Positions 8,423 to 37,022 of a stretch of DNA of 58,953 nt are shown here, in pieces. The DNA is taken from positions 1 through 58,953 of the forward strand of contig JAQTZZ010000025.1 of NCBI GenBank assembly GCA_028687545.1, given 5' to 3'. Each line of letters begins with the position of its first letter. The first letter of the stretch is position 1. Made by a program: the position numbers and the translations under genes. The notes beneath the pieces are model-generated. The model did no database searches. It was not told the origin of the DNA and worked only from the letters and a program-made list of their open reading frames with translations. This DNA comes from Candidatus Wallbacteria bacterium (GTDB lineage Bacteria > Muiribacteriota > JAQTZZ01).

Positions 8423-8453
8423 ATTCTCTCCTTGTTTATTACAATCTCTACTC

Positions 8454-8873: not shown

Positions 8874-8875
8874 TG

Positions 8876-14379: not shown

Positions 14380-14457
14380 TTTATCCTCCGGGATGTAACT
14401 ACATATTCCAAGTGTTTGCACCTGTCTCTTCTAGCTGAAGACTATAGATAAAATCGT

Positions 14458-15444: not shown

Positions 15445-15559
15445 TTATCCTCCGGAATGTATTGCTGAATAGTAACTAAAATGTTTACTGCTGTAATAAT
15501 TCATTCGCATCCTAATGTTTTCCGCTCCCGATTTTCTTCTGGGATACGAAAAAAAATAC

Positions 15560-17098: not shown

Positions 17099-17233
17099 TT
17101 TCCCCTCAACAACGATTGATCTAACATCTCTTGTTATGCCGTATTTGAAACAAGTCCTTTCTGTCACCCTTCACTGAATATGGCTGGTGTAAATTAAATC
17201 GCCATAGGTTCTTTTACAAGATTCCATCTTCTT

Positions 17234-20025: not shown

Positions 20026-20049
20026 ATTACTCTCCATCAACATTCAACA

Positions 20050-21624
20050 TTATTCATAATACTTATGATGAGCACTGGGTAATCGCTTGAAACTGCAAGG
20101 CACTGGCGGAAAAAAAGCCTGATAATGGAAAGCTGCGCTGATCTCGGAGCTGCCTATATTGTCCGGCACTCTTGAGAAAATCACTTTATTGCCGGGCGAA
20201 CTTCCTGTATTTGTGATCGTAAGATTGTCTGCGATTACTGCCCCCCGGAACAGGGCCGTGAGATTGAAAGTCTGAGTGTTGCCGAGACTGACATTGACAG
20301 CCCCTCCTGCATAGACCAGTCCGTTATGTTCGATCACCACGGATTCAGTTCCTTTTGAACCTGAGTAGATAAAGCTGATGTTGCCGGTTGCGATCAGATT
20401 CAGCCGCTGTGAGGCCGACATGCTCTCAGGGCCGTAAACCGTGATGTTCCCTGCGATCAGAGTAGTGTCACATCCATTCGTAATTGCAGCATCACCGATC
20501 TGAGTGAGATCTATTACCACCGGATTATTTCCATAATAAAGAATCACATTGGGATATTTTGTATAAAAATCGTCCAGAAGATCGGTCACATAGAAACTGA
20601 TTCCAGATTCAGTAACATAAGTGCCGATCTTACCGGCATAAGCCGTAAGGTGAGCGGGCAGATAGCATTCTGCGGTCAGATTCTGCTGCACATCCAGTAT
20701 GATCTCACCGCTTAATGTAATGTCACTGGCAATCACCTTGAGATTTCTGTCATGCGATGCGAGATTGTTGGATCCATAGAGAATGGTATTTGTTTCAATG
20801 GAAGTGCCGATCAGATAAATCACTTCTCTGGAATGACTGTAGATTTCAGCAGTAGTCTTGGTAAGATAACAGTTTTCGCAGGTCTCTAAAATCTCACCAG
20901 TCAGATGAGCCGGATATGTTGTTTCAAAGGTTCCAGCTGGCTGGGAATTGAAGCGTTTAACATAAAAATTCTTGATCCGGTCTGATTGGAATGCGTAAGA
21001 GTCATCAGGAAGAAATTTCAGCGGCAGATACTGGGGGTTTGTGTCAGCATCAACTGTATAAAAAGTGTTCTCTTTGGTAATGTCACCATCTTTTAAAACA
21101 ATATAGGGAGTGTAAGACAGGGAAAAATCGTTTTCCAGCACAAGCGGTTTGTTGTAAATAGAGGGCAGTACTGCGTTTTCACTGGTGAAAATCCGGGGTT
21201 CGAATTCCTCAGTGCCATAACTCCTCCACAATCCGTCTGCAAGCTGGTATTGATAATCTATTACTATATTCTGCTCCAGCGTGTCTTCCCTGCCTGTAAA
21301 GATCATTTCAGTGGTGCTGATTCCAGGAATGAAAAAATCGGTCTTCCCTCTCGCGCTGTTCCATGATATGCGGGATTCACTGGTGGAAAAAGTCATTGCA
21401 GCAGGTGAAAATTCGGTTTCCAAAGAACCAAGGAAATAGGAAGAATTACCTGCAGCTTTGAGTTCGTTGCGGTATTTCTCCTCGATCCTGATGCCGGCAA
21501 GAGAAGCATTCCTGGCGATATTCACGAATCCGACCAGGGCGATCACTGCCCCAAAAATCAGGATCAGGGCGATTACCAGGATGCCGCCACGATTCTGCCT
21601 TAAAAAACGACTGCACAATCTCAT
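20050..21624 (-). CDS. PilX-like pilus-associated protein, uncharacterised
   Basis: 524 residues. A basic N-terminus with NRGG is followed by a long hydrophobic helix (ILVIALILIFGAVIALVGF), the layout of a PilX/GspK-type class III pilin-like start, then a helix with NELKAAGNSS. The rest is beta-rich with many Thr/Ser/Ile repeats and VYAGGAVNVSLGN-like strands near the end. No catalytic motif seen. The frame reaches 21657, but those residues come from an intergenic palindrome; ATG 21624 is preferred. It lies between pseudopilins and S74 fibre genes. Function unknown; a minor pilin or pilus-tip component is likely. Confidence 0.65.
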   Translation of the reverse strand: MRLCSRFLRQNRGGILVIALILIFGAVIALVGFVNIARNASLAGIRIEEKYRNELKAAGNSSYFLGSLETEFSPAAMTFSTSESRISWNSARGKTDFFIPGISTTEMIFTGREDTLEQNIVIDYQYQLADGLWRSYGTEEFEPRIFTSENAVLPSIYNKPLVLENDFSLSYTPYIVLKDGDITKENTFYTVDADTNPQYLPLKFLPDDSYAFQSDRIKNFYVKRFNSQPAGTFETTYPAHLTGEILETCENCYLTKTTAEIYSHSREVIYLIGTSIETNTILYGSNNLASHDRNLKVIASDITLSGEIILDVQQNLTAECYLPAHLTAYAGKIGTYVTESGISFYVTDLLDDFYTKYPNVILYYGNNPVVIDLTQIGDAAITNGCDTTLIAGNITVYGPESMSASQRLNLIATGNISFIYSGSKGTESVVIEHNGLVYAGGAVNVSLGNTQTFNLTALFRGAVIADNLTITNTGSSPGNKVIFSRVPDNIGSSEISAAFHYQAFFPPVPCSFKRLPSAHHKYYE

Positions 21625-21645
21625 TAAAAATACCCCTGCAAATTC

Positions 21646-21672
21646 GGGCAGACACATGGGTCTGCCCCTACG
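21646..21672. repeat. GGGCAGAC...GTCTGCCC palindrome
   Basis: GGGCAGAC-ACATGG-GTCTGCCC followed by CTACG. The same unit recurs at 22307-22333, and related units with different arms occur at 54878-55059. Palindromes of this style are common in intergenic DNA of environmental bacteria, from memory. Confidence 0.75.
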
Positions 21673-21674
21673 AT

Positions 21675-21701
21675 TTCACCATTCACTATTCACCATTCAC
21701 C
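21675..21701. repeat. TTCACCATTCACTATTCAC intergenic repeat
   Basis: Iterated CACCATTCAC/CACTATTCAC words. Related stretches occur at 22425-22440, 23311-23340 (opposite orientation) and 23361-23392, always between genes of this pseudopilin cluster. Confidence 0.6.
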
Positions 21702-21770
21702 TGAATCTTCCTCACCCAGACGCGATAAATTGTAGAGTATCTTCAATTACTATTGTTAGATCCTCTTATC

Positions 21771-21791
21771 CATGAAGCCAAAGGCTTCATG
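21771..21791 (-). terminator. hairpin after pseudopilin gene
   Basis: CATGAAGCC-AAA-GGCTTCATG, a perfect 9-bp stem with a 3-nt loop, 10 nt past the TAG of the minus-strand pseudopilin at 21801. It is not followed by a T-run, so termination strength is uncertain; an RNA end or stability hairpin is likely. Confidence 0.5.
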
Positions 21792-21800
21792 GGCGCGTCT

Positions 21801-22289
21801 CTACCGCTGCGGCGCTACGCCTGTCCTGAAATCCACGTTCACGAAACCGTCTTCCACTGCTATCCGCACCAGGTAGAATTCGCTGGAAACCCTGGTCACT
21901 TCAAAGGCTGTCACCCTGTCGAGAAGAACTTCGAAAGCAGCATCGTTCACAGTCCTCCTGATTTCTCCGGAAAATAATCCATTGGAATCAGTGGCAGACA
22001 CAAATTCATAATCAATTTCCTTGGTGTCGATTGGCGACCTGTGCATCACGAAGTCCACTTCGTTAGTGCCTGTCACAATAATCTCATCCGTATCGCTGGT
22101 TTTCATCTCCCTGATGATCCGCTCCAGGGCCATCTGGGTTTCCATGCCTCTCTGGACCATGCCACAGGACTGAACATAGGCTGAAATGCCAGACTGCAGG
22201 ATCCGGGTGCCCAGCAGGCAGACAATGCCCACCAGCGCAATGGTCAGCAGCAGTTCGAAGAGGGTTAATCCCCTGGCATTCATTTTCAT
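21801..22289 (-). CDS. minor pseudopilin, PilW/GspJ-like
   Basis: 162 residues with a prepilin signal: NARG followed by LTLFELLLTIALVG, i.e. cleavage after Gly, Glu at mature position 5 and a hydrophobic helix. The remainder is a small beta-rich globular domain with few motifs. Alternative starts exist at 22316 and 22283; 22289 gives a short leader of normal length. It lies in a minus-strand row of three prepilin genes (FimT-like, PilV-like, then this one). Expected to be processed by PilD-type peptidase and to help prime pilus assembly. The subclass is inferred from order. Confidence 0.75.
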   Translation of the reverse strand: MKMNARGLTLFELLLTIALVGIVCLLGTRILQSGISAYVQSCGMVQRGMETQMALERIIREMKTSDTDEIIVTGTNEVDFVMHRSPIDTKEIDYEFVSATDSNGLFSGEIRRTVNDAAFEVLLDRVTAFEVTRVSSEFYLVRIAVEDGFVNVDFRTGVAPQR

Positions 22290-22306
22290 ATTCAATCCCA
22301 ATTCAT

Positions 22307-22333
22307 GGGCAGACACAGGGGTCTGCCCCTACG
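22307..22333. repeat. GGGCAGAC...GTCTGCCC palindrome, second copy
   Basis: GGGCAGAC-ACAGGG-GTCTGCCC followed by CTACG; same unit as 21646-21672, in the same orientation, just upstream of a pseudopilin start. The remaining intergenic bases to 22439 are AT-rich and include a TCACCATTCACC word. Confidence 0.75.
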
Positions 22334-22439
22334 TTTTATCATTTTCCAATCACCCTCCCACTTCGCTATGCTCCGTGGGTAAGAATCTGTAACCAAATTC
22401 TGCGAATTTGTAACAGCTTCTATATCACCATTCACCATT

Positions 22440-22844
22440 TCACATTCCCTTAACCCTGTATGTAAATTCATAAATATTCGCTCCCATGGTGCCGTCGCTT
22501 TTCATCAGGCCGTTACCGCTGGGATCCATTTCCCCGCTGCCGTTCGTGACCTCGACAGTGATGCTGAATCTGCTCGCATCTTCAGAGACTAATGTTCTTC
22601 TTAAATAGCTGTAATCCCGGTCGCGTACTTCGGTCGTTCCTGTGATGAAATTAGCGATCAACGAGGTCTCAGAAGTTGCCATCAGCTCTGCGATCCTGGC
22701 CCTGGCTGAATTCAGTCCCTGCACCCGTTCGCAGAACATGGAGCCTGCCCTTGTGCTGTTGCCAAGCACTACCAGAAATGACCCGGAGAACACTCCAACT
22801 ATGGCGATGGTGATCAAAACTTCCATCAGGCTGAGACCCCTCAT
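22440..22844 (-). CDS. minor pseudopilin, PilV/GspI-like
   Basis: 134 residues. It starts MRG then LSLMEVLITIAIVG: very short leader, Gly at -1, Glu at +5, hydrophobic helix. The helix continues amphipathically to about 60, followed by a small beta domain with TNGSGEMDPSG. Its start overlaps the end of the FimT-like gene by 4 nt. Minor pilins of this type form the tip complex with PilW/PilX partners. Family is clear from the prepilin signal; the exact member is uncertain. Confidence 0.78.
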   Translation of the reverse strand: MRGLSLMEVLITIAIVGVFSGSFLVVLGNSTRAGSMFCERVQGLNSARARIAELMATSETSLIANFITGTTEVRDRDYSYLRRTLVSEDASRFSITVEVTNGSGEMDPSGNGLMKSDGTMGANIYEFTYRVKGM

Positions 22845-23263
22845 TGCGTAACCCTCCCCAGTGTATTCACTGAGAATTGCACTGTGGTGCCGCCTCTCTG
22901 CAGGCTGAAACCGATGGAATCAGAAATTCCGCCGAATTTATCAAAAGTGATTGTATGAGGAATAGTTACTGCCACTTCACTGCTTGTCAGATCAGCGAAT
23001 GTCACCCCGTAAGGAAGAGTTACACTCCGCCCGTCAAAGAGATCATATGTTGAAGCATTGAGTGTGATGATCTCCGGAGTTTCCAGGGAATAAGCCTGAT
23101 AGCGGGTAGAGGTGAGATCTGCCTCCAGCTTCTGCCTGGCGTTCTGGAATTCCCAGTCGCCGAGGATGCCGGAAACTGACGGGCCAGCCACATAGGCCAG
23201 CAAGCCTACAAGGGCGATCACCAGCAGCAGTTCCATCATAGTAAAGGCATTGTGATCGTGCAT
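22841..23263 (-). CDS. pseudopilin, FimT/GspH-like
   Basis: 140 residues with the N-terminal pattern NAFTMMELLLVIALVGLLA, then the FimT/GspH-type layout (helix with QNARQKLEADLTSTRYQA, beta domain, and a Gly-rich QFSVNTLGRV end). The residue before the cleavage point is Ala, not the usual Gly, while Glu5 is kept. First of the three-gene minus-strand prepilin operon. No Shine-Dalgarno; TAAAAT lies exactly 6 nt before ATG, so the mRNA is probably leaderless. Confidence 0.82.
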   Translation of the reverse strand: MHDHNAFTMMELLLVIALVGLLAYVAGPSVSGILGDWEFQNARQKLEADLTSTRYQAYSLETPEIITLNASTYDLFDGRSVTLPYGVTFADLTSSEVAVTIPHTITFDKFGGISDSIGFSLQRGGTTVQFSVNTLGRVTQ

Positions 23264-23298: not shown

Positions 23299-23310
23299 CA
23301 GTATTTTTAA

Positions 23311-23392
23311 GAATAGTGAATAGTGATCAGTGAATAGTGATTAGAAATTCCAGTGTCTTTCGCCATTCACCAAATCACCATTCACTATTCAC
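23311..23392. repeat. GTGAATAGTGA / TCACTATTCAC inverted repeat cluster
   Basis: GAATAGTGAATAGTGA words at 23311-23340 face ATTCACCAAATCACC and ATTCACTATTCAC at 23361-23392. The cluster lies between divergent operons, and its right part overlaps the likely -35 box of the next gene. Confidence 0.6.
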
Positions 23393-23409
23393 TTCCAAAA
23401 GCGTATCCT
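23381..23409 (+). promoter_or_regulatory. promoter of anchored CxxC protein gene (leaderless)
   Basis: TTCACT, 17-nt spacer, TATCCT (23404-23409), then 6 nt to ATG 23416; no Shine-Dalgarno. The -35 box lies inside the TTCACTATTCAC repeat. Confidence 0.45.
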
Positions 23410-23415
23410 TTTTAC

Positions 23416-24549
23416 ATGAAAAAAATCACAGTTGTTTTAATAATCTCAACCCTGGTCCTGGAAATATTCTATTTCCGCCTGAAAAGCACGCCTGCAGGGG
23501 AATCCAAAAAAATTGAAATCAGGCTGGCTGAAATTGAGGATTCGATCTTTCACGGCTATTCCGAAAAACCGCGCCTTCAGTATACAGAGCTGTTAAATGA
23601 ATTTCCGGAAAATCTGAGCATCCGCAGGTCGTTAATCCGGAGTATCCCCGCTGAGACTGATCCAAAATCCCCTTTATACTCAGTTTCCAGCAGCTTATTC
23701 CTGGCCAGGCATACTGGGGGAACACTTGACAAAACCGCTGGAGAAATCCTGACAGGAGCGCTTTTCGAACAGTCAACCAGCAAAGACCTTCTTACAGAGA
23801 TCATAGAAGTCCTGGCAGAACGCTGCCCTGAGGCAGTTCCTGTCTGCCGGAAATATATTGCAGATCGAAATTCCAAGTATCGGCTTCCATCATACAGGCT
23901 TCTTAAAAAAATGGGTGCGCTGTCGGAAACTGAAGAGGCCTCCTGCCATTATGCAGACCTGCTTACAATCCATTATGGTATTTCCAGCTGTGAAATTATC
24001 GATGCCATTGCTTACTTTGATCGGGAATCCGGAAGGCCGGACTGGGAAAAGTTCAAACAAACCTTTGCTTCATCGTCAATGGACACTGTCGAAAACATAG
24101 TCCCGTATGAATACCTGGATGGCCCGGCCTCTGAAGTCTCACGCGTGCTTGTGAGTTGCTTTTTTCCTGAAATCAGGAAAACTCTTTTATACTGCTTTGA
24201 CCAGCCGGAACCTAAATTGCGATACAATGCGCTAAAAGCTCTGAAACTGGCAAATTACCAGGATCTGGATTTTTTCAAATTTCACAGAGTCAATCTCACT
24301 TATTTCAACCCGGCCTGCAAATCATGTTCCTTTCAGGCTTACTTCAAACTCCATAAAATTTCAGTCGATTTTTTCATTTCCCAAAAAAACGGACCAGGAT
24401 CAAGTGAAGCACTGAAAAATCTGCTGGACGGAAATGTTTTTTTAACTGAAATCATCGCAGGTCTTGAGCTGGAATATCTGAAACCTGCCGAAGAGGCGCT
24501 TTCATACCTCAACGCGGGGATCAGGGAATTTCCGGCTCAGCACAAGTAA
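23416..24549 (+). CDS. membrane-anchored CxxC protein, paralogue 1
   Basis: 377 residues, no family recognised. N-terminal membrane anchor (about 3-20) ending LKSTPAG, then an all-helical, TPR-like body and a conserved C-terminal part with FNPACKSCSF, YFKLHKISVDFF and SQKNGPGSSEALKNLL. A clear paralogue of 26663-28015, but about 60 residues are missing just after LKSTPA, an internal deletion covering what looks like one helical repeat pair. It precedes a giant PilX-like gene, as its paralogue once did. ATG 23416 is chosen because the upstream part of the frame is repeat DNA and the anchor begins here. Possibly an assembly partner of the PilX-like protein (inference). Confidence 0.65.
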   Translation: MKKITVVLIISTLVLEIFYFRLKSTPAGESKKIEIRLAEIEDSIFHGYSEKPRLQYTELLNEFPENLSIRRSLIRSIPAETDPKSPLYSVSSSLFLARHTGGTLDKTAGEILTGALFEQSTSKDLLTEIIEVLAERCPEAVPVCRKYIADRNSKYRLPSYRLLKKMGALSETEEASCHYADLLTIHYGISSCEIIDAIAYFDRESGRPDWEKFKQTFASSSMDTVENIVPYEYLDGPASEVSRVLVSCFFPEIRKTLLYCFDQPEPKLRYNALKALKLANYQDLDFFKFHRVNLTYFNPACKSCSFQAYFKLHKISVDFFISQKNGPGSSEALKNLLDGNVFLTEIIAGLELEYLKPAEEALSYLNAGIREFPAQHK

Positions 24550-24557
24550 ACAATTTA

Positions 24558-24587
24558 GTAACAACATTCTCTTTTCCGCAGTATAAT
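24558..24587 (+). promoter_or_regulatory. promoter of PilX-like gene 1
   Basis: GTAACA, 18-nt spacer, TATAAT (24582-24587), about 40 nt before ATG 24628. The same arrangement recurs at 28024-28053 in front of the decayed copy; conservation between duplicates supports function. Confidence 0.6.
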
Positions 24588-24627
24588 TAATTTAAGGGAG
24601 AATCCTGATCCTGGGAGGGATTGAATT

Positions 24628-26646
24628 ATGAAAAAAACCGGCATAGTGCTGCCGCTGGTCCTTGTTTTACTTTTAGTTCTCTGCATGCTCGGCCTTTTCA
24701 TGAATAAATCAGCTCAGCACGAATACCGCTTCACATACAGAAGCACAGATCACCTCAGAGCTCTCTACATCGCCCAGGGCGCGATTCAGGCCACTCTCGC
24801 CAATCTCCTGCAGGAAATGAACAGAGCAGGCAATATCCGCAATAACTTTGTCAGCGACGGTGCCACTGCCAATTTTCTCAATTACAACCAGCTCGACGGC
24901 ACATACAAGGCAGCCATCGACAGCCTGGGCGGTGACCTCAACAAATCCGACGCCGGAGTGATCGATGAAACCAGGTACGACCCTCCGGACATCAATACCA
25001 CTCTTTCTGAAAGTACTGTAGTCAACGGACAGGGCACTTTCTGCGGCGACAGGATCAAGAGGCTAACCATCACTGCCACAGTCGTTTTTCACGGCTCAGG
25101 CGTCAAAAAACAGGCTCCACCGTTCACCAAGATAATCACCCAGTGTTTCGACTGCAAAATCGCGGACATCAGGCCTGTAGGCAATAAATACGTGCTGATG
25201 GTCAAGGAAAGCGGGAAAGCCGATTTTGACAAAGGAGATCATTTCTTTGTGAAATACCAGGATAACAATGGACAGAGTCTCGGCATCTCCATCGGCGGCA
25301 AGCCGGAAATCCATCTTTACAAGCAGTATTTCACCCACATGGGATGGGAAGCAGTCCGCAATAATGCGGATTCCGATTTATTTAAAGGTTCGCCCCAGGA
25401 TTCCAACTCCCCGAAATCCCTGATACCCGGATGGCAGGCAGACGCTGGATCAATCTCACCCGACCCGAGCAGCAACTATGTGGCAGACAATGAAGGCTGG
25501 GACGACCAGCTGCAGCAACCTGGAACATACCCTCTGAGCATGTGCCAGAACGCACAGCAAGCCTCTTCACCTCAAACCGGAGCCGGTGGTCCTCACATAG
25601 TAGGCGGCCAGCCGAACTGTGTTCTTGATACAGGTGCCGGTTACGGCGTCGAACCTGCTTTCTGCGGACCTGGAATCGAATGGAAAGATAACAAGCACAA
25701 GTTATCAGGCAACAAATTTTACTTCAACTTCGGTCTGGACGACGGACGCTCCCACCTGTTTTACCATAACTGTTCCGAACCGTGCACAATTCATGGAGAT
25801 GTCTGGAAAGTCTGGGAAGTGATGAGCTATGAAGCAAAAGACATCCTGGATACAGGAATTTGCCCTTGTGCAGTAGTGAACAAGCAGGGTCCCTGCAACT
25901 GTCCAAGCATGACAAATCCCAACTGCTGTCAATGTCATCATATTGAAGTCAAAGGCTGGTGGGACTGCATCGATATCATGATCATGAAAAATGAAGGTGA
26001 GGTCAAAGGAAAATACAGAACCGACAATGGCGGGTGGAATAACTGGACTGGAAAACCTGAAAAAATAGATGTGTTTAAGAACTTCAAATCCAAACCTGAT
26101 TTTCAAAATGGTGATTCATTTGTATTCAGTGATTTCCTGCGCGGAGCTACGCGCAGAGTTACCGATCTCACAGCAGACAAAACCCTGTACGACGGAAACC
26201 GCCTCTATCTCGAAGGCATCGTTCAGACTTCAAAACAGGAAAATCTGAATCTGATTGTCAACCATCCCGGCTGCCTTCTTTCAGGAACCAGCAACAGTGA
26301 AGTGGATGTGAACCTGCGCAGTTCCATTTATGCTCCCAAAAATAATCCGTTCTTTGCGCCGCCTACTGCTCTCAGCCTTGTCACAAACGGTACAGCCAAC
26401 CTTTCAGGAACTGAAATGGCTGCAGGCATCTGTGCCCAGAACAGCATCAACGGCGATATCAAGCTCCACGGCAACCTGGTCACTAAAACGATCAACAAGG
26501 GCAGCCTCAGCAACGAATTGCTATATGACAGCACACTTCTGAGAATGAGCGGCCAGTTCGGAAATCAGATCGATAGGGATGCCTGCTTTGTGGTCTCGAT
26601 CAGCCCGATCCCGCAGGAATTTTTCGATCAATATAATCTAAAATAA
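24628..26646 (+). CDS. giant PilX-like protein 1
   Basis: 672 residues. N-terminus MKKTG then IVLPLVLVLLLVLCMLGLF, NKSAQHEYRFTYRSTDHLRA: a pilin-like helix without Glu5, as in PilX/GspK. A conserved core follows (IADIRPVGNKYVLMVK at about 190, SPKSLIPGW, GRSHLFY). Then comes a Cys-rich segment (about 415-450: NCPSM...CCQCHH, then GWWDC), and a C-terminal domain ending DACFVVSISPIPQEFFD. The Cys-rich part looks like a disulfide knot or metal site. GGGAGGG precedes ATG. Two intact paralogues follow downstream (28283, 30422). Known PilX proteins are about 200 residues; this size and the Cys-rich module are unusual. Probably a pilus-tip or tip-adhesin component. Confidence 0.7.
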   Translation: MKKTGIVLPLVLVLLLVLCMLGLFMNKSAQHEYRFTYRSTDHLRALYIAQGAIQATLANLLQEMNRAGNIRNNFVSDGATANFLNYNQLDGTYKAAIDSLGGDLNKSDAGVIDETRYDPPDINTTLSESTVVNGQGTFCGDRIKRLTITATVVFHGSGVKKQAPPFTKIITQCFDCKIADIRPVGNKYVLMVKESGKADFDKGDHFFVKYQDNNGQSLGISIGGKPEIHLYKQYFTHMGWEAVRNNADSDLFKGSPQDSNSPKSLIPGWQADAGSISPDPSSNYVADNEGWDDQLQQPGTYPLSMCQNAQQASSPQTGAGGPHIVGGQPNCVLDTGAGYGVEPAFCGPGIEWKDNKHKLSGNKFYFNFGLDDGRSHLFYHNCSEPCTIHGDVWKVWEVMSYEAKDILDTGICPCAVVNKQGPCNCPSMTNPNCCQCHHIEVKGWWDCIDIMIMKNEGEVKGKYRTDNGGWNNWTGKPEKIDVFKNFKSKPDFQNGDSFVFSDFLRGATRRVTDLTADKTLYDGNRLYLEGIVQTSKQENLNLIVNHPGCLLSGTSNSEVDVNLRSSIYAPKNNPFFAPPTALSLVTNGTANLSGTEMAAGICAQNSINGDIKLHGNLVTKTINKGSLSNELLYDSTLLRMSGQFGNQIDRDACFVVSISPIPQEFFDQYNLK

Positions 26647-26650
26647 AGCG

Positions 26651-26656
26651 TATTAT
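26651..26656 (+). promoter_or_regulatory. -10 box of paralogue 2 (leaderless)
   Basis: TATTAT ends 6 nt before ATG 26663, with no Shine-Dalgarno. No good -35 is seen; the box overlaps the end of the upstream gene region. Part of the recurring 6-nt spacing. Confidence 0.4.
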
Positions 26657-26662
26657 CAAAGC

Positions 26663-28015
26663 ATGAAGAAATTCGCCGTTGTTTTCATATTCTCAGCCCT
26701 GCTCCTGGAAATCGTATATTTCAGCCTGAAAAGCACGCCTGCCAGTGAATTCGATAAAATCAGGGCTGCTGTGGAAAACCGCGATTTTCAACAGGCTTAT
26801 CTGCTGCAGAAGGAACTGGGAAGGCATTTCCCGGACAGTTCTATGGCAGGAGCAGCCCCGGAATTCATAATCTCCTTTGAAATAAGGGAACTTTCCCGGA
26901 AGTCATATCAACAGGCATTGGAGCTGCTGGCAAGAAGAAAATCAGAATTTCCCGGACTTTCGCCAAATCTGGAAATCGAAATCAGGCTGGCTCAGATTGA
27001 GGATGCGGTCCATCAAGGCAGTTTTGATGAACCGCGCCTGCAATATGCCGGACTTTTGAAGGAATTCCCTGAAAGCCTGGCAATCCACAGCTCCATACTT
27101 AAAACTCTCCCTGGAGAATGGGATCCTGCTTCTCCGCTGAATTCAATCAATAACGCCCTGTTTATAGCTGAACACACTTCCGGAATCTTAGATCCGGTCC
27201 CTGGCAACGTATTAAGTGATGCCCTGTACAAACCTTACCGCTTTAAAGAGCTTGCCGGACGGCTGGTCCCGATTCTGGCCTTCCGCTATCCCGGAGCCCT
27301 GGATAGATGCCGGGAAAATCTCAACTCGAGATCCACAGATTTAAGAATTCCTTCCTACCTGGTATTAAAAACGAGAAATGTTCTTTCAGAATCAGAAATC
27401 GCCGGATACCATTATCGGAATTTATTATCACTCGAATTCAGCAAAGGCAGCCTGGAGATCAGAACTGCAGTCGACTATTTCAAAAGCGCTGTCAAGAGAT
27501 CAGACTGGGAGGATTTTAAAAAGACTTTCGCTGCCTGCTCCACTGATACTGTCGAGAGCATTATCCCCTTCGATTCCACCGAAGACCCGGAAACAGAAGT
27601 CCCGCGTTTAATGGCAACCTGTTTCTTTCCGGAACAAAAGAAAACCCTGCTTCATTACTTCACCCAGCCGACAGAACCAAAATGGCGCCTGGACGCCTTG
27701 AAGGCTCTTCAGATCGCAGGCTGTCAGGATCTGGATCTTTTCCAGTTCCACAGGACAAATCTCACGTTTTTCGACCCTCTCTGCAAAAATTGTGCAATCC
27801 GGAATTACTTTAAACTGCACAAGTTATCAGTCGATTTCTTCGGATCGCAAAAAAACGGACCTGAATCCGCAGAAGCCTTGAAAAGCCTTATGTCAGGCAG
27901 GACATTTCTGATGAAATTGATGAATACGCTTGACTCTGAATATTCAGGATCTGCGGAAGCCGCATTATCTCACCTCAACAGTGCAATCAAGGATTTTAAA
28001 GACCGCAATAATTGA
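26663..28015 (+). CDS. membrane-anchored CxxC protein, paralogue 2
   Basis: 450 residues. N-terminal anchor (about 3-20) ending LKSTPAS, TPR-like helices (about 30-140), a helical body and a conserved C-terminal part with FFDPLCKNCAIRNYFKLHK, then SVDFFGSQKNGP. This is the full-length form; paralogue 1 (23416) lacks about 60 residues after LKSTPA. The following sequence repeats the promoter that follows paralogue 1, then a decayed PilX-like start, so the pair (anchored protein plus PilX-like protein) was duplicated as a unit. Function unknown. Leaderless start is likely. Confidence 0.65.
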   Translation: MKKFAVVFIFSALLLEIVYFSLKSTPASEFDKIRAAVENRDFQQAYLLQKELGRHFPDSSMAGAAPEFIISFEIRELSRKSYQQALELLARRKSEFPGLSPNLEIEIRLAQIEDAVHQGSFDEPRLQYAGLLKEFPESLAIHSSILKTLPGEWDPASPLNSINNALFIAEHTSGILDPVPGNVLSDALYKPYRFKELAGRLVPILAFRYPGALDRCRENLNSRSTDLRIPSYLVLKTRNVLSESEIAGYHYRNLLSLEFSKGSLEIRTAVDYFKSAVKRSDWEDFKKTFAACSTDTVESIIPFDSTEDPETEVPRLMATCFFPEQKKTLLHYFTQPTEPKWRLDALKALQIAGCQDLDLFQFHRTNLTFFDPLCKNCAIRNYFKLHKLSVDFFGSQKNGPESAEALKSLMSGRTFLMKLMNTLDSEYSGSAEAALSHLNSAIKDFKDRNN

Positions 28016-28023
28016 AATATTTA

Positions 28024-28053
28024 GTAACAAAATATCGGAGTCTATGGTATAAT
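28024..28053 (+). promoter_or_regulatory. duplicated promoter before decayed PilX-like gene
   Basis: GTAACA, 18-nt spacer, TATAAT (28048-28053), the same boxes and spacing as at 24558-24587. It now stands in front of a dead stub, so it may drive PilX-like gene 2 at 28283. Confidence 0.6.
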
Positions 28054-28088
28054 TAAGAAAATGGGATTGCTCCCTGGAGTTTCGAATT

Positions 28089-28212
28089 ATGAAAAAAAGG
28101 GTGTTGCGCTCCCGCTCGATCAGTCTCTGCTTTTCGTTCTCTGAATATGTTTTTTCATATAATAAACCAGCACAGCACGAATTTCCCTTCATTTACAGGG
28201 ACACAGGCCTAG
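28089..28212 (+). pseudogene. decayed 5' stub of a PilX-like gene
   Basis: The sequence aligns with the first 40-odd codons of the giant PilX-like genes (ATGAAAAAA, then a Leu-rich stretch, an AATAAACCAGCACAGCACGAA block equivalent to NKSAQHE, and TTTACAGGGACACAGG equivalent to TYRSTD), but with frameshifts and stops. Reading frame +1 gives KKGVALPL then LLFVL and a stop. Beyond 28212 the similarity ends, so the rest of the gene was deleted. The ribosome binding site has decayed too. Confidence 0.75.
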
Positions 28213-28282
28213 AAAAAAAGCAGGAGGCTTCATGAAGTTGAATTTTTCAAAGAAATCAGTAAAAGAGTATAAGGAGGGACGT

Positions 28283-30301
28283 ATGAAAAAAAGATCAGGC
28301 ATCGTACTTCCGGTAGTTCTGGTGCTGCTCTTGGTACTCTGCATGCTCGGTTTGTTCATGAACAAATCCGCGCAGCATGAGTACAGGTTCACTTACAGGA
28401 GCACAGATCATCTCAGGGCGATCTATATCGCACAGGCGGCCATCCAGGCCACTCTGGCCCATATCGAAGAAAAAATGAACGTTGACCAGACCATGAGGAA
28501 AGCTTTTGTCGAAGACGCTTCAGGCGTCATTGTCAACAGTCTGGCCGATCTTGAAACACTTTATCAGAAAGCGGTCACTGATCTGGATACTGACCTGAAT
28601 TCCATTGATGGTGCCAACAAGCTGGATGTAGGACATTACACGGTTTCCAAGCTTACTGCAACTCTCTCCAGCAGCACAATCGTCAATGGACAGAACACAA
28701 AATACGGAGACCGTATTAAAAGGCTCACCATCTATGCCATGGTCAACTATCGTGGAGCAGGCACCAACAAGCAGGCACCTGCATTCGACAAGGAAGTCAC
28801 CCAGTGCTTTGACTGCAAGATCGCGGATATCAGGCCTGTAGGAAACAAGTATGTCCTGATGGTCAAGCAGAGCGGAGCAGCAGATTACGATAAAGGCGAT
28901 CATTTCTGGGTTAAATACCAGGATGATAAAGGAAAAAGCGAGGGGATCTCCATTGGCGGAAAACCCGAAATTCACCTGTTTACACAATATTATATCCATT
29001 CAGAATGGGATACAGCGCGGAAAAATCAGGAATGCGATTTCTTTACAGGCAGCGCCTCAGACTCAAATTCGCCCAAATCCCTTATCCCTGGCTGGCAGGC
29101 AGGCGACACTCCAGTCGTTGACAAGGGAAAGTATGTAGCAGACAATGAACCCTGGACTGAACAGCTCAAGCAGCCTAACACTTATACATTAAGCGACTGT
29201 GACAAAGCCTGCCAGTCCTCATCTCCAAAAAAGCCTTCCAGCGGTCCGCATGAAGTTGGTTCAACCCTTACACTCTTGGATACAGGATCAGGTTATGGAG
29301 TAGAACAGGGGTCCGAATGCGGTCCTGGAATCAAGTATGAGCAGAACAAACATCCTTTATCTTCGAACAAGTACTATTTCAATCTGGGCTTGAAAGACGG
29401 CCGCACACATCTGTTTTACAAATTCTGCACTGATCCGTGTCCGATTCTCGGGGATGTCTATAAAGTCTGGGAAGTTGTAAGTTACGAAGCAAAAGATGAC
29501 AAGGATACAGGCACCTGCTCGTGCGGGAAGGTAGATTCGGCCTGCTGCTGCACCTGCAAGGATCCCAAGTGCTGCCAGGCCCATCATGTTGAAACATCAG
29601 GCTGGTGGGATTCCAGCGACTCAATGACCATGAAGAACGAAGGCCAGGTCAAGGGTAAATACCAGGTAGACAACGGCGGCTGGAATAAATGGACAGGCAA
29701 AGCCGAAACCATCGACTGCCCGAAGAATTTCAAGTCCCAGCCTGATTTCGGCAGTGGAAATGCCTTTGTGTTCAAAGAATTCCTGAAGGGCGCTACCCGC
29801 CGTGTCACTGACCTGACAGTTGACAAAACCCTTTATGACGGCAACAAGCTTTATCTGGAAGGCATTGTTCAGACCTGTAAAGTTGAAAAGCTCAAGCTGA
29901 CAGTCAATCATCCGGGATGCCTGCTCTCAGGCGATTCAGGCAATGCGGTGGACGTCAATCTGGACAGCTCTGTTTATCAACCTCCACAGAACAAGTTCTT
30001 TGCTCCGCCAACCGCTTTAAGCCTGGTCACTAACGGTACTGCTAACCTGTCGGCAACTGAAATGTATGCCGGCATCTGCGCCAAGAACAGCATCAACGGG
30101 AAAATCAAGCTGCACGGCAACCTGGTCACTGAAGTGATCAATAAAGACAGTCTGAGCAATGAACTGCTGTACGACAGCACTCTGCTCAGGATGAGCGCTG
30201 ACAAGAAATACGGCAACACCAACGCGGATGAAGCCTGCTTCGTGGTCTCGATCAGCCCGATTCCGCAGGAATTTTTCGATCACAATTCGCTGGTGCAATG
30301 A
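28283..30301 (+). CDS. giant PilX-like protein 2
   Basis: 672 residues, colinear with 24628-26646 and highly similar at both ends. Features: KRSG then IVLPVVLVLLLVLCMLGLF, NKSAQHEYRFTYRSTDHLRA, IADIRPVGNKYVLMVK, GRTHLFY. The Cys-rich segment (about 415-445: ACCCTCKDPKCCQAHH then GWWD) is followed by a conserved C-terminus ending EACFVVSISPIPQEFFD. ATG 28283 is chosen because AAGGAGG lies 5 nt upstream; the frame extends to 28232. The cysteine spacing differs from paralogue 1 while surrounding residues agree, so this segment evolves fast. Likely pilus-associated and exported through pilin-type machinery. Confidence 0.7.
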   Translation: MKKRSGIVLPVVLVLLLVLCMLGLFMNKSAQHEYRFTYRSTDHLRAIYIAQAAIQATLAHIEEKMNVDQTMRKAFVEDASGVIVNSLADLETLYQKAVTDLDTDLNSIDGANKLDVGHYTVSKLTATLSSSTIVNGQNTKYGDRIKRLTIYAMVNYRGAGTNKQAPAFDKEVTQCFDCKIADIRPVGNKYVLMVKQSGAADYDKGDHFWVKYQDDKGKSEGISIGGKPEIHLFTQYYIHSEWDTARKNQECDFFTGSASDSNSPKSLIPGWQAGDTPVVDKGKYVADNEPWTEQLKQPNTYTLSDCDKACQSSSPKKPSSGPHEVGSTLTLLDTGSGYGVEQGSECGPGIKYEQNKHPLSSNKYYFNLGLKDGRTHLFYKFCTDPCPILGDVYKVWEVVSYEAKDDKDTGTCSCGKVDSACCCTCKDPKCCQAHHVETSGWWDSSDSMTMKNEGQVKGKYQVDNGGWNKWTGKAETIDCPKNFKSQPDFGSGNAFVFKEFLKGATRRVTDLTVDKTLYDGNKLYLEGIVQTCKVEKLKLTVNHPGCLLSGDSGNAVDVNLDSSVYQPPQNKFFAPPTALSLVTNGTANLSATEMYAGICAKNSINGKIKLHGNLVTEVINKDSLSNELLYDSTLLRMSADKKYGNTNADEACFVVSISPIPQEFFDHNSLVQ

Positions 30302-30325
30302 TCGGCAAGGTAGTAAAATGATTAT

Positions 30326-30352
30326 CCAGGGCAGGTCAATATCCTGCCCTGG
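30326..30352 (+). terminator. strong hairpin between PilX-like genes 2 and 3
   Basis: CCAGGGCAGG-TCAATAT-CCTGCCCTGG, a perfect 10-bp stem 25 nt past the stop of PilX-like gene 2. No T-run follows, so it could be an attenuating or mRNA-stabilising hairpin rather than a full terminator. Confidence 0.5.
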
Positions 30353-30421
30353 CTCCTGAAAAAGAAAATCAACCGGCAGCTTTAAACAGATTGCCATGGG
30401 AAGGGAGTATAAGGAGGATAT

Positions 30422-32653
30422 ATGTGGTGGAAAAAAGGCATTGTCTTGCCTCTGATCCTGGTGCTGCTGCTGGTGCTCTGCATGCTCGGACTGTTCATGA
30501 ATAAATCAGCCCAGTATGAATACGGCTTCACTTTCAGAAGCACTGATCACCTGCGGGCGCTCTATCTGGCGGATGCGGCAATTCAGGCCACACTGGCTCA
30601 GATCAAAGAAGACATGAACAAGGCAGGTACAGTCCGCGATGCGATGGTTGGTATTGGTTCCGGTCCAGTGATTAAAGACACGGACCTGAGACCTCCATAT
30701 AGTATAGCACTGTCTGCTCTTGAAGGCACCATGAACGACAATGACGGCACAAATATGATTGATACGTGTAGAATTGTTAAAATTGAGACTGATGCTAAAG
30801 TTTCCGATAGTCTGCTTTTGCATCAGAATCTTTTTACAGACCCCAAAAAATTCTTTGGCGACCGCACCAGGCGGCTCATCATCACTGCCCAAATTACTTT
30901 TTCCGGTGCAGGAAACCAGAAGCAGGAGAAGAGATCCTTTAAAAAGATCGTCCACCAGAGTTTCGACGTGAAAGTGGCTGATGTGAGGCCTGTAGGCAAC
31001 AGATATGTGCTGATGGTAGCCAAGATCGATGATTCCAAGAAGGATTTCAATACAGGCAATCATTTCTGGGTCAAGAACAAATCAGACACAGGCGCGGAAA
31101 GCGTCGGCATCTCCATTGCAGACAAGGAAGCAGTGGTAGATCTGTTCCCTCTCTATTCAGGCCATGAAGACTGGGAAAAATACAAAAGCGATGTGAAATA
31201 CGACATTTTCAACAATGCCAATGACGCCAACAGCCCCAAGTCGCTGATACCTGGCTGGGACGATCCGATGGATGACGCCTTCAAACCTGAAGACAAGGAT
31301 GCTTTCGTGGCAGACAACGAGCCCTGGGAAGTGAACAACAAGCTTTCCATGGCTAAAAAATCAAACATCCTCAAGGAATTGAGCGGAGCCGCAGAATCAA
31401 AAGGAAAGCCTGCCGACCATAGCGCTGTAGCCAACCCTGTCCACCTGAAAAGCAAGGAAGGAGTTCTCCTGAATGCCAGCGAAACAGGGGGTGCGCCGAT
31501 CATCCCGATCCCGTTTCCAGTGCCGTTCCCGGTCCCGCTCATCTCTGACAAAGGCGGACACCTGCTGGAAGAGGAATCAGATCCAACAGGGATCTCATAT
31601 CTGTTGGGAGGTAACTGCGGATTCCAGATCGAGTTCGCAGCTCTCGTTCATCCCCTTAAGAAAGTTAACGATGGCCCTTTCTTCAATTCAGGGCTGGATA
31701 CAGGCAGAACCCATCTGTTTTACGAGAACTGTTCAGTCCCATGCCCGATTTTCGGGGATGTCAAGAAGAACTGGAAAGTCTATCTCTACAAATCAATTGC
31801 CGCAGGCGAAACCGGCAAAGATAAAGTCGAAGAAGGCCCAGTCTGCAGAAAAATTTTCACTGGCGGCGACTGGACGATCCGCTGCTACCACCACAACAGC
31901 TTCCAGCACAAAAATAACACAGCTTGGGACACCAATGACGAGGCTCAGATAGAGGTAGTCAAGATAGGCCAGACCCAGCCCCAGGCAACGGAACTGAAAG
32001 GTCAGTATCAGATCAAAGACAATAATGCCTGGAGCGCCTGGAATAAAGATCCGATCGAAATCAACCTCAACCTGAATCTCAAATCAGACAAAAACCTGAC
32101 AGGGATCACTGCAGCCACTCTGATCAAAAAACAGTTTTTGATCGGCGCTACCCGCAGGGTTCTGAAGCTCGGCGATGACGCCACCCTGCTTGCTGCCAGC
32201 AATAAGCTCTATCCTGAAGGAGTGGTCGATGTCACGGACTGCGGAGACATGAAACTGATAGTGAACAGTCCGGGCGCTCTGATCACTGACAAGGCGTTTA
32301 CTCTTTCTTCCTCCAGTTATAATGATCAGAACGGTTTTTTCAAGGCCAAGACCGCACTCAGCCTGGTCACACAGGACATTGCCACAATCGGCACTTCTCC
32401 GACCAGGGCAGGCATCTGCTGCAAATCCGCAGACACTTCAGGCGGCGGGATCAAGCTGCAGGGCAATCTGGTGGTGGAAAAAATCGTGATCAACGGAAAA
32501 AAAGAGATCCAGGGCCGCCTGTTTTACGACGGAGTGCTGAAGGATGATGCTTTTATCGTAGATAATGTCGGAGACAATGATGAAAAAGCCAGTCTGGTAG
32601 TTTCCATCAGTCCGATTCCACAGGAATATTTTGATGAATTCAATTTGAAATAG
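30422..32653 (+). CDS. giant PilX-like protein 3
   Basis: 743 residues, the most divergent of the three. The start WWKKG then IVLPLILVLLLVLCMLGLF and NKSAQYEYGFTFRSTDHLRA are conserved, as are VADVRPVGNRYVLMVA, SPKSLIPGW, GRTHLFY and the end SLVVSISPIPQEYFD. A Pro/Val-rich insertion (about 355-375, IPIPFPVPFPVPLI) replaces part of the middle. The CC-rich knot is reduced to a few cysteines (about 470-500). AAGGAGG lies 5 nt before ATG. It is followed within 30 nt by PilV- and PilW-like genes, so this gene and those two look like one minor-pilin operon. Confidence 0.7.
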   Translation: MWWKKGIVLPLILVLLLVLCMLGLFMNKSAQYEYGFTFRSTDHLRALYLADAAIQATLAQIKEDMNKAGTVRDAMVGIGSGPVIKDTDLRPPYSIALSALEGTMNDNDGTNMIDTCRIVKIETDAKVSDSLLLHQNLFTDPKKFFGDRTRRLIITAQITFSGAGNQKQEKRSFKKIVHQSFDVKVADVRPVGNRYVLMVAKIDDSKKDFNTGNHFWVKNKSDTGAESVGISIADKEAVVDLFPLYSGHEDWEKYKSDVKYDIFNNANDANSPKSLIPGWDDPMDDAFKPEDKDAFVADNEPWEVNNKLSMAKKSNILKELSGAAESKGKPADHSAVANPVHLKSKEGVLLNASETGGAPIIPIPFPVPFPVPLISDKGGHLLEEESDPTGISYLLGGNCGFQIEFAALVHPLKKVNDGPFFNSGLDTGRTHLFYENCSVPCPIFGDVKKNWKVYLYKSIAAGETGKDKVEEGPVCRKIFTGGDWTIRCYHHNSFQHKNNTAWDTNDEAQIEVVKIGQTQPQATELKGQYQIKDNNAWSAWNKDPIEINLNLNLKSDKNLTGITAATLIKKQFLIGATRRVLKLGDDATLLAASNKLYPEGVVDVTDCGDMKLIVNSPGALITDKAFTLSSSSYNDQNGFFKAKTALSLVTQDIATIGTSPTRAGICCKSADTSGGGIKLQGNLVVEKIVINGKKEIQGRLFYDGVLKDDAFIVDNVGDNDEKASLVVSISPIPQEYFDEFNLK

Positions 32654-32681
32654 TAATTATTCAATAAGAAAGGGGTATCAG

Positions 32682-33167
32682 ATGAAGAAAAAAGGAATTT
32701 CCCTGGTAGAGATGATGATCGCCATCATGATTCTCGGAGTGGGGATCGTCTTTGTCACCAAGATGTTCGGGCAGGGCGGCTATGTAGTTGCCAAATCCAA
32801 GTGGGAACTTTATGCGATGTGCCTGGCCAACGGAGAAATCGAACGGATCAACTTTTACAGCGGGGCTTTCTCCAACCTCAAAGCCAGCAACAAGGGTGCA
32901 GCCAACTGGCAGGACAAGTGGAGCCCGCTCGATCCGGGAACCGATTTTCTGGCCAATAAAAGCGTGATTCCTCAGGAATATCTCAATGCCGAGTATCAGA
33001 AGAAGATCTCGATCGAGATGGTGCCCAGCGGCACTAATAATTTCCTGGCCAAGGTCAATGTCTCGATCAAATGGCACGAGATGACATCCAGCGGCAACAA
33101 AGGGTTCCAGCTGAACGTGCCTACCCTGATCGCCACACCAAAGCCCTTCTTTGAATATAAACAATAA
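32682..33167 (+). CDS. minor pseudopilin, PilV-like
   Basis: 161 residues. Prepilin start MKKKG then ISLVEMMIAIMILGVG: short basic leader, Gly at -1, Glu at +5, hydrophobic helix. The globular part has Trp/Asn/Gly-rich turns and ends with FQLNVPTLI. AAGGGG lies 10 nt upstream. It sits between PilX-like gene 3 and the PilW-like gene with 28- and 11-nt gaps, i.e. one operon. Likely a tip-complex minor pilin. Confidence 0.8.
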   Translation: MKKKGISLVEMMIAIMILGVGIVFVTKMFGQGGYVVAKSKWELYAMCLANGEIERINFYSGAFSNLKASNKGAANWQDKWSPLDPGTDFLANKSVIPQEYLNAEYQKKISIEMVPSGTNNFLAKVNVSIKWHEMTSSGNKGFQLNVPTLIATPKPFFEYKQ

Positions 33168-33178
33168 GGAGTAACAAT

Positions 33179-33865
33179 ATGAAGAAAAAAGGATTCAGCT
33201 TACCGGAAATACTGGTCGTTGTGGCGCTGTTCGGAATCCTGATCCCTGTGCTGTACTGGGTTTACAAGGCCAACTGGCTGGTCTTCCACCGCACCACCCA
33301 GCAGCAGGCCCTGCAGGAGGACATCCGCGACTGCCTGAACAAGATGATCATAGACGTCAAATCAGCCTATAAGATCGAAGTGGCAAAAGCAGGCCCTGAT
33401 GGATGCATCAAAATCCAGCGCTTCAATGGCTATGCCAAGAAAGACTCCACTACAGCCCCGCCCAGCATCAGCTATAAGCCGCAGGAACTGGTGGAAATCG
33501 AATATTCCGTTGACAGCGCCAAGAAACTTCTCTCACATAAAGTCGGCGGCTCAACCAGAGACTCATACCCGAATATCGGAACAATGGAAGTGGTTCCTCT
33601 GACGCCTGATACGGCAAATTACACCTTCAAAGCAGCAGCTGCCGGAGACAAAGACAAGATCGCAGGCTTTTCAGTCTACATCATGGGCTCATATTTGGAT
33701 GATTCCATGAAAGGAAAAGCCCAGGTAGTCGAAGTGGAAACCAAGATGTTTTCCCACTTTCTGAGGAATTATCTGATTTTTGGATATGACGGCAAACCCT
33801 TTATGCCTGAAGGCGGCTATTTCACCAACCTGGAAGTGCCTGGCGCAGGTAATGATGAATTTTAG
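33179..33865 (+). CDS. minor pseudopilin, PilW/GspJ-like
   Basis: 228 residues. Prepilin start MKKKG then FSLPEILVVVALFGIL (Gly at -1, Glu at +5), a helix with QQALQEDIRDCLNKMIIDVK, then a beta-rich globular domain: LVEIEYSVDSAKKLLSHKV, VVEVETKMF. This layout fits PilW/GspJ. AAGGAG is upstream of ATG. Last gene of the plus-strand minor-pilin operon; two hairpins follow before the convergent fol genes. Confidence 0.8.
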   Translation: MKKKGFSLPEILVVVALFGILIPVLYWVYKANWLVFHRTTQQQALQEDIRDCLNKMIIDVKSAYKIEVAKAGPDGCIKIQRFNGYAKKDSTTAPPSISYKPQELVEIEYSVDSAKKLLSHKVGGSTRDSYPNIGTMEVVPLTPDTANYTFKAAAAGDKDKIAGFSVYIMGSYLDDSMKGKAQVVEVETKMFSHFLRNYLIFGYDGKPFMPEGGYFTNLEVPGAGNDEF

Positions 33866-34933: not shown

Positions 34934-35827
34934 TTATTGGACCTGTCCCTTATAGTCGGTGACAGCATTCAGCTGCCCGATGCAGGCCTGGCCGTAAGCC
35001 ACTTTTCCGTAACCTTTATCGCCCCACTCCTCACCCCAGGAATTCTTGATGATCCAGTAACCAGCCGCATCATCCCAGCCTACTGCCAGGATGGCGTGGT
35101 TCGGAGTGCCGCCCTTGATGTTATAAACGCCTTTGGCATATGCCTTGAAGGCAGGGCTGTCAGCATCCACCACAGTCACGATTGAGCCATAATAAAAGAT
35201 GCAGGATTTCATCATTTCCGCGTCTTCCTCGAAAACAGCAGTATCGTTTATTTTATAGGTTCTGGAAAGCGCTTTGCAGGATTCCTTCACTGCTTTGTAT
35301 GGTTCCGCTGATTCTTCAGCACAACCCTGGTCCCTGAAATATTCGGAACAGTCCAGGTTTCCGCCGTCGCAGCCATAGCCCTGCTTGTTGCAGTTGAGCA
35401 GGTCCTGCTCGGCAAGGTCGACTTCCTTTTTATCTGCGCACATGATGTTGTGCTCGAAATTGGCTGTAGCTGCAAATGCCCAGCAGCTGCCGCAGTCTCC
35501 CTGGTTCTTCACAGGTGTAACCCCTTTGTTATCGCGCCAGTCCCATTTCTGCAGCGATGCCTTGAAACTCTTGTTATGCAGTTTTTTAACGATCCGCTTC
35601 AAGTCCTCAGGGGTGAACTGTTGCAGACCTGTGCAGTTTTTGTATTTAGGGATCGCTTCAATGGAAACCTCGAAAGCGTTTCCGTTTTCATCTGCGATCT
35701 GCTGTGCCTGCTTGACCAATGTATAGCGCTCGGACCTGGTGTAGGTCTGTTCGATAGGCACCGTGGTCTCTGCATAAAGCGTGACTGCAAAGACCATCAG
35801 CATCAGAATTACGATTCCCGATCTCAT
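34934..35827 (-). CDS. papain-family (C1A) cysteine protease, copy 1
   Basis: 297 residues. Signal peptide (1-19), a propeptide-like region (about 20-90) with ENGNAFEVSIEAIPKY, then the mature domain from WDWRD. All four catalytic elements are present: oxyanion Gln and active Cys in NQGDCGSCWAF, His in NHAILAVGWD, Asn in NSWGEEWG. Cysteines in LLNCNKQGYGCDGG suggest the usual disulfides. Exported protease, probably active after propeptide removal. First of three related copies on the minus strand, each with its own promoter. Role unknown; nutrition, predation or processing of the fibre proteins are possibilities, none shown. Confidence 0.92.
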   Translation of the reverse strand: MRSGIVILMLMVFAVTLYAETTVPIEQTYTRSERYTLVKQAQQIADENGNAFEVSIEAIPKYKNCTGLQQFTPEDLKRIVKKLHNKSFKASLQKWDWRDNKGVTPVKNQGDCGSCWAFAATANFEHNIMCADKKEVDLAEQDLLNCNKQGYGCDGGNLDCSEYFRDQGCAEESAEPYKAVKESCKALSRTYKINDTAVFEEDAEMMKSCIFYYGSIVTVVDADSPAFKAYAKGVYNIKGGTPNHAILAVGWDDAAGYWIIKNSWGEEWGDKGYGKVAYGQACIGQLNAVTDYKGQVQ

Positions 35828-35878
35828 ACTGCACCTCCCAAAATAATAAACATATAGGAAGAATTTCTCTCTACTTTA

Positions 35879-35907
35879 ATTATACTTTCCAGATAGAGTC
35901 TAGTCAA
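35879..35907 (-). promoter_or_regulatory. sigma-70 promoter of protease copy 1
   Basis: Minus strand: TTGACT, 17-nt spacer, TATAAT, about 50 nt before the start codon of copy 1. Near-perfect consensus. Its sequence AGACTC...GTATAATTAAA is similar in front of copy 2. Confidence 0.85.
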
Positions 35908-35949
35908 TTGAAATTCCCTTCTGAATTCCAGGTAAATCGAATCTGAATT

Positions 35950-36849: not shown

Positions 36850-36900
36850 ATGGCACCTCCCGGAACTATTAATCAGACAGGTATATTTTCCTCTATTTTA

Positions 36901-36929
36901 ATTATACTTCCAAACCAGAGCCCAGTCAA
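36901..36929 (-). promoter_or_regulatory. sigma-70 promoter of protease copy 2
   Basis: Minus strand: TTGACT (36924-36929), 17-nt spacer, TATAAT (36901-36906), about 50 nt before the ATG. The spacer and flanks resemble those of copy 1, so the promoter was duplicated with the gene. Confidence 0.85.
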
Positions 36930-36958
36930 TCCGAATTCCCGGCTGTAATGAGCTGTAA

Positions 36959-36989
36959 TAAAAGAATTCCCGGATAAATCCGGGAATTC
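36959..36989 (-). terminator. terminator of protease copy 3
   Basis: GAATTCCCGGAT-AA-ATCCGGGAATTC, a perfect 12-bp stem, 34 nt past the stop of copy 3; on the minus strand the stem is followed by TTTTATT. It separates copy 3 from the promoter of copy 2. Confidence 0.75.
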
Positions 36990-37022
36990 CGATAGTTATA
37001 CTCAGATTTTTGTTACAGCATC

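Follow-up and report, generated by a model that had tools for sequence, protein, structure and literature searches.

In the genome of a Candidatus Wallbacteria bacterium (assembly GCA_028687545.1), a contig of 58,953 nucleotides (JAQTZZ010000025.1), here called the window, carries a cluster of plus-strand genes at 23416-33865 which we lean towards reading as the minor-pilin (tip) operon of a type IV pilus, enlarged by a duplicated block that consists of a gene for a membrane-anchored protein with a CxxC motif, a promoter, and a gene for a giant PilX-like pilin. The giants are very probably modular tip pilins of the PilX/GspK class, ordinary for the PilX-PilV-PilW slot in this phylum. The anchored protein can be described with high confidence as the detached sensor half of a receptor-type class III cyclase, in which the membrane helix and the solenoid are retained, the cyclase is lost and a CxxC motif is added. 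The strongest new lead of the analysis is a possible selenocysteine in a giant pilin of a sister genome. A combined model, in which giant tip pilins carry a redox-active centre (selenocysteine in the sister genome, cysteine in the window's genome) and are served by a periplasmic CxxC solenoid from a cyclase receptor, is rated slightly below an even chance.

The window is the whole of contig C25 of a 4.5-Mb genome (G000). Phylum comparisons covered 40 genomes, including G000, its family-level relative, the Candidatus Wallbacteria metagenome-assembled genome STB_16 (G001), and the genomes G002, G006, G024 and G025. The gene order of the cluster is anchored copy 1, promoter, giant 1, anchored copy 2, promoter, remnant, giant 2, giant 3 and two short pilins, and the open reading frames (ORFs) of both anchored proteins and all three giants are intact (Table 1). 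PilM, PilN, PilO and two secretins are encoded at 1-10.8 kb of the window, and a second, separate minor-pilin set is located at 20050-23263 on the strand opposite to the giants; the setting is therefore a type IV pilus locus.

Giant PilX-like Pilins

Giants 1 and 2 share 66% identity, and giants 1 and 3 share 42%. The prepilin-type N-terminus KKxG-IVLPLVLVLLLVL, composed of a short basic leader, a glycine and then a hydrophobic helix, is present in every giant copy. In the three giants of the window this helix is long, and the C-terminal part is very large. In the window's genome, giants occupy seven loci or fragments (three on C25 and the others on C72, C101, C83 and C71); three tandem copies were found in STB_16 and one in G002. 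The original prediction had stressed the exceptional length of these genes. This is true in relation to the PilX class, whose members have about 200-300 amino acids, but long forms are usual in the phylum: PilX-like proteins of 594-836 amino acids, followed by PilV and PilW, also recur in G002, G006, G024 and G025, and great length is therefore the norm here. Matches to the giant N-terminus were also detected inside ORFs of 446-984 amino acids in further genomes of the phylum. The only giant pilin of G002 (L041, G002:C11) has an in-frame TAA at about 8402-8404, where its relatives carry serine; recoding was rejected for this codon, which is read as an error or decay.

Several results weigh against the class assignment. 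No giant gave a convincing match to PilX_N, N_methyl or any other Pfam or NCBIfam model, and no Pfam pilin family was matched at E<=0.1; the NCBIfam ComGG match (E 0.012 only) was below the cut-off. The search of PDB sequences with the giants gave no convincing match, and the tblastn search against plasmids gave none. The AlphaFold2 model, built on a shallow alignment of 12 rows, has a mean predicted local distance difference test score (pLDDT) of 53.8. Fair confidence is reached for a helix (residues 7-63), for strands as far as residue 180 or so, and for a beta domain spanning roughly residues 500-620; the model is unreliable for residues 183-498, which include the cysteine knot described below. 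The fold search with the giant and anchored models gave no match at E<=0.001, the best for the giant being a weak match to an ice-binding-like beta domain (E 0.023).

Duplication of the Block and Its Promoter

Comparison of the sequences indicates that the anchored-giant pair arose by local tandem duplication. The duplicated unit described in the original prediction was recovered, namely two anchored paralogues, each preceding the same promoter and a PilX-like gene; in the tree giants 1 and 2 are sisters (support 100/99) and giant 3 joins the C72 and C83 giants. The GTAACA-18-TATAAT promoter noted behind each anchored copy is exact at both sites. Unit 2 is no clean copy, because promoter 2 is separated from giant 2 by a decayed, frame-shifted remnant of a giant N-terminus. 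The remnant is placed after promoter 2 at the distance that matches the start of giant 1, and the true start of giant 2 is located about 190 bases further on with its own ribosome-binding site. The block of anchored gene, promoter and giant was therefore duplicated, and unit 2 was rearranged afterwards.

Four sites in the 4.54-Mb genome match the pattern GTAACA-N17-19-TATAAT, against none for the reversed control. The two sites outside the window form a divergent pair (G000:C6:36323-36414, L095) that is flanked by a solute-binding protein gene and by a radical-SAM-like gene. When both strands of STB_16 were searched with GTWACA allowed, the sole match was directly upstream of a giant gene, G1b, whose own upstream neighbor is another giant. 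The shared promoter is missing before giant 3 and the C72 and C83 giants, and giant 3 also stands without an anchored gene. Since the promoter is common to two genera without the anchored gene, it belongs to the giant genes and not to the pair.

Anchored CxxC Proteins

The two anchored proteins are 51% identical, and copy 1 is shorter by about 71 solenoid residues. The original prediction had taken them for an unrecognized family, and this was overturned by the searches. With a single sequence as query, matches at E 3e-26 to 1e-5 were obtained inside proteins of 590-690 amino acids from several Wallbacteria, in which a Guanylate_cyc domain (E 1e-11 to 1e-22) comes first, followed by a membrane helix and then by the region that matches the anchored protein. 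An HHalign comparison of the two anchored proteins with seven cyclase C-terminal halves gave a probability of 99.9% (E 2.6e-33, 400 columns), and the match starts at the membrane helix, which sits at the corresponding place in the cyclases. No Guanylate_cyc match was found in the anchored proteins, whose sequence begins at this helix. Only generic alpha-solenoids (TPR/HEAT-like) were retrieved by the fold search.

The CxxC motif lies within a three-residue insertion that is missing from the cyclases and common to L039, a protein of STB_16 (CIGC). L039 is a predicted lipoprotein encoded on a short contig beside a solute-binding protein gene, with no giant adjoining. Anchored copies 1 and 2 and L039 group at 96/97 in a long-branched tree. 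The motif also raised the candidate of a thioredoxin-fold disulfide oxidoreductase, which was dismissed, as the fold modeled around CxxC is an all-helical solenoid (pLDDT 86.5).

Cysteine Knot and a Candidate Selenocysteine

The cysteine knot is limited to giants 1 and 2 and to G1b of STB_16. It was thus correctly described for giants 1 and 2, but it is missing from giant 3, and the rapid evolution claimed for it is not peculiar to it: 20 of 40 positions are identical in the knot block vs. 11 of 41 for residues 81-120. Other cysteine-bearing giants (C72, C83 and G1a) have 16-18 cysteines each. A c-type heme site, suggested by CCQCH in giant 1, was rejected, as CxxCH is missing from giant 2 and G1b. 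A redox-active centre is an evenly balanced proposal for the knot of giants 1 and 2, with metal binding less likely; the proposal follows from the closest relative in the sister genome, which seems to carry selenocysteine at this place.

This relative is G1b (L037, G001:C357, minus strand), a giant pilin outside the window. Its 692 codons are open but for one TGA at about 1177-1179, which lies within the cysteine knot (ACGPC-TGA-SCNFC). On the sequence evidence, this TGA probably encodes selenocysteine. The hairpin that follows carries the loop GGUCC at nucleotides 22-26, counted from the U of UGA, and a 10-pair stem in the model scan, and it satisfies the published model of the bacterial selenocysteine insertion sequence (bSECIS), which is placed 16-37 nucleotides downstream (PMC13188914); a hairpin of equal quality by this model follows 0.4% of the codons in the same genes. 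The loop GGUCU occupies the same position, nucleotides 22-26, after the TGA of the formate dehydrogenase FdhA in STB_16. A second description, GGTC in the loop at 22-25 and six or more Watson-Crick pairs, fits 5e-6 of all positions, a criterion that was set after seeing the case. Contig C313 of STB_16 (L108, 51-5494) encodes this formate dehydrogenase, which has TGA as the codon of the catalytic position (IDHCARL-TGA-HSSTVAGL), along with selA (504 bits, cut-off 268) and the selenocysteine tRNA (59.7 bits; anticodon tca by ARAGORN). In the window's genome, no selA and no selenocysteine tRNA above the cut-off were found. The TGA of G1b may correspond to C414 in giants 1 and 2, on a plausible but gapped alignment.

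The other explanation of the TGA is a sequencing error or a nonsense mutation, with the knot cysteines forming structural disulfides only. G1b is known from one contig with a coverage of 2.9, and no second TGA-bearing homolog was found among the giants of the 40 genomes, where very few homologs exist. selB was not found in STB_16, where contig C313 stops just past selA; selB is often located directly after selA. With the protein fixed, 2.2% of synonymous recodings of G1b reach an equal strict hairpin (1.8% for FdhA, the positive control), 14% have an equally long stem, and the folding energy is unexceptional (20% of recodings; shuffle z-score -1.7). The serA stop of STB_16 is likewise followed by a strong hairpin of this type; it was examined as a candidate and assigned to an ordinary stop and terminator. 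An error or mutation would nevertheless have had to produce the sole in-frame stop of the gene inside the knot, ahead of a hairpin that fits the bSECIS model and parallels that of FdhA, in a genome with selA and the selenocysteine tRNA. We regard this explanation as unlikely and retain selenocysteine as the preferred reading. A possible remnant of the same element behind Cys414 of giant 1 (GGTCC at the same distance) is suggestive but post hoc and was set aside; 2.7% of synonymous recodings reach it.

Relationship Between the Anchored Protein and the Giants

In the proposed mechanism, the N-terminal helix of the giants would polymerize with PilV and PilW into the tip complex of the pilus, and the large head would be displayed outside, where it may be adhesive or contact a substrate. 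If the selenocysteine of G1b is real, the cysteine cluster in the heads of giants 1 and 2 would work as a redox-active centre. The anchored solenoid is expected to face the periplasm. Pilins awaiting assembly are located there, and the solenoid may hold or monitor them; its CxxC may serve to keep the cysteines of the knot in the reduced state or in their correct pairs. That the putative sensor protein acts on the giant pilins at all is doubtful.

One form of such a link is the dedicated partner and client of the original prediction. Spelled out, it would make the anchored CxxC protein a thiol-disulfide chaperone for folding the knot of the neighboring giant, and the two would evolve as a unit. 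The two genes were co-duplicated, and the CxxC insertion occurs only in the orphan solenoids, not in their cyclase relatives. CxxC solenoids and cysteine-rich giants are both limited to G000 and G001 among the 40 genomes; this shared restriction fits a partnership, but it counts as one phylogenetic event. On the other side, anchored-giant adjacency is confined to the window locus. The co-occurrence check named in the original prediction went largely against the pair: giants stand beside other genes, apart from anchored ones, at four further loci of the window's genome (C72, C83, C101 and C71) and in G001 and G002, among them the giants C72, C83 and G1a with 16-18 cysteines, and the promoter was found with a giant alone. 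Giants with their own promoters do not require co-transcription with the anchored gene. The CxxC homolog of STB_16 is a lipoprotein beside a solute-binding protein gene rather than a giant, and the alpha-solenoid is not a thioredoxin-type oxidoreductase. With giants that lack anchored neighbors and a promoter linked to the giants, a dedicated chaperone-client system is not established, and we consider it improbable.

A passenger origin has a better though still minority claim: the anchored gene would have inserted beside a giant gene and been co-duplicated with it, while serving an unrelated periplasmic role. The promoter of the giants does not depend on the anchored gene, among the loci that carry cyclase-type relatives just one is within a few kb of pilins, and copy 1 has lost about 71 solenoid residues. 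Against it, both copies are intact ORFs that have kept CxxC at 51% overall identity, which points to selection after the duplication. The passenger view is equally as economical as a holding or monitoring role.

Features of the Locus

Table 1. Features of the minor-pilin cluster (window coordinates)
Feature	Position	Strand	Remarks
Anchored protein copy 1, 377 amino acids	23416..24549	+	N-terminal membrane helix and extracytoplasmic helical solenoid
CxxC (CKSC) of anchored copy 1	24316..24327	+	In insertion missing from cyclase relatives
Promoter GTAACA-N18-TATAAT of giant 1	24558..24587	+	
Giant PilX-like minor pilin 1 (very probably modular), 672 amino acids, 20 Cys	24628..26646	+	Intact ORF, homology, model
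Cysteine knot of giant 1 (CPC...CNC...CCQCH)	25861..25938	+	Knot alignment
Anchored protein copy 2, 450 amino acids	26663..28015	+	Membrane helix 2-23 and about 20 solenoid helices; model pLDDT 86.5
CxxC (CKNC) of anchored copy 2	27782..27793	+	
Promoter GTAACA-N18-TATAAT, second copy	28024..28053	+	
Decayed, frame-shifted remnant of giant pilin N-terminus	about 28089..28210	+	Upstream regions of giants 1 and 2 aligned
Giant PilX-like minor pilin 2 (very probably modular), 672 amino acids, 22 Cys	28283..30301	+	Intact ORF, homology
Cysteine knot of giant 2 (CSC...CCCTC...CC)	29516..29575	+	Knot alignment
Giant PilX-like pilin 3, 743 amino acids, 10 Cys, no knot	30422..32653	+	Tree: sister of C83 and C72 giants
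PilV/GspI-position minor pilin	32682..33167	+	N_methyl match, E 4.8e-6
PilW/GspJ-position minor pilin	33179..33865	+	N_methyl match, E 2.6e-5

Upstream of anchored copy 1, an inverted repeat with the units gtgaatagtga and tcactattcac is present at 23310-23400, and the Rfam search of the window gave no match. The pilus or secretion assembly genes form two sets on opposite strands, one at 3-5288 with PilM, PilO and a secretin, and the other at 6219-10847 with a PilN-containing protein, PilO and a secretin. Five related secreted proteins are encoded in tandem at 13948-20043, and the member at 15560-17167 has a near-C-terminal Peptidase_S74 (endosialidase chaperone) domain. Three tandem papain-like C1 peptidases are located at 34934-37937, and a Peptidase_C1 match directly adjoins the giant pilin on C83; a link between these peptidases and the giants of C25 and C83 was set aside, since the genome has 27 Peptidase_C1 matches.

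Significance and Comparison with Known Systems

Modular minor pilins are already known, and most of the extra modules they carry are adhesive or have no assigned role. A cysteine-rich module with selenocysteine in a sister species, if true, would point to pili that do redox chemistry, with a selenium-based redox site presented at the tip of a type IV pilus; no pilin selenoprotein was found in the literature searched. The anchored protein is an example of a receptor sensing domain that has been freed from the cyclase and now stands next to pilins, and it offers a concrete handle on what such sensing domains recognize.

Like the bSECIS selenoproteins represented by FdhA, G1b has an in-frame TGA, a hairpin at the standard distance and cysteine-containing homologs; it differs from them in being a single sequence from a genome in which selB was not seen. 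The anchored proteins are colinear with the receptor-type class III adenylate/guanylate cyclases of Wallbacteria over membrane helix and solenoid (400 columns), and they differ in the missing cyclase domain and in the CxxC insertion, with one relative (L039) being a predicted lipoprotein. In the Pseudomonas membrane, FimS makes contact with minor pilins, and FimS/PilS have been described as sensors of the pilin inventory (PMC5979040). An analogy is proposed here, namely a membrane protein watching unassembled pilins; the anchored protein is not homologous to FimS/PilS as far as tested and has no kinase or other output domain.

In Myxococcus, minor pilins including PilX, PilV and PilW form a tip-priming complex (PMC7541494). 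The giants resemble PilX/GspK, acting with PilV/GspI and PilW/GspJ, in operon order and N-terminal helix, and they differ from this class in length (594-836 vs. about 200-300 amino acids) and in the lack of a Pfam PilX_N match. Modular pilins such as PilB and PilC of Streptococcus sanguinis and CofB carry a bulky module grafted onto a small pilin module and are probably located at the tip (PMC8179133). The giants would share with them the N-terminal pilin module and the large head, and they are set apart by a head without a recognized domain, by the cysteine-rich insert and by the presence of several paralogs per genome.

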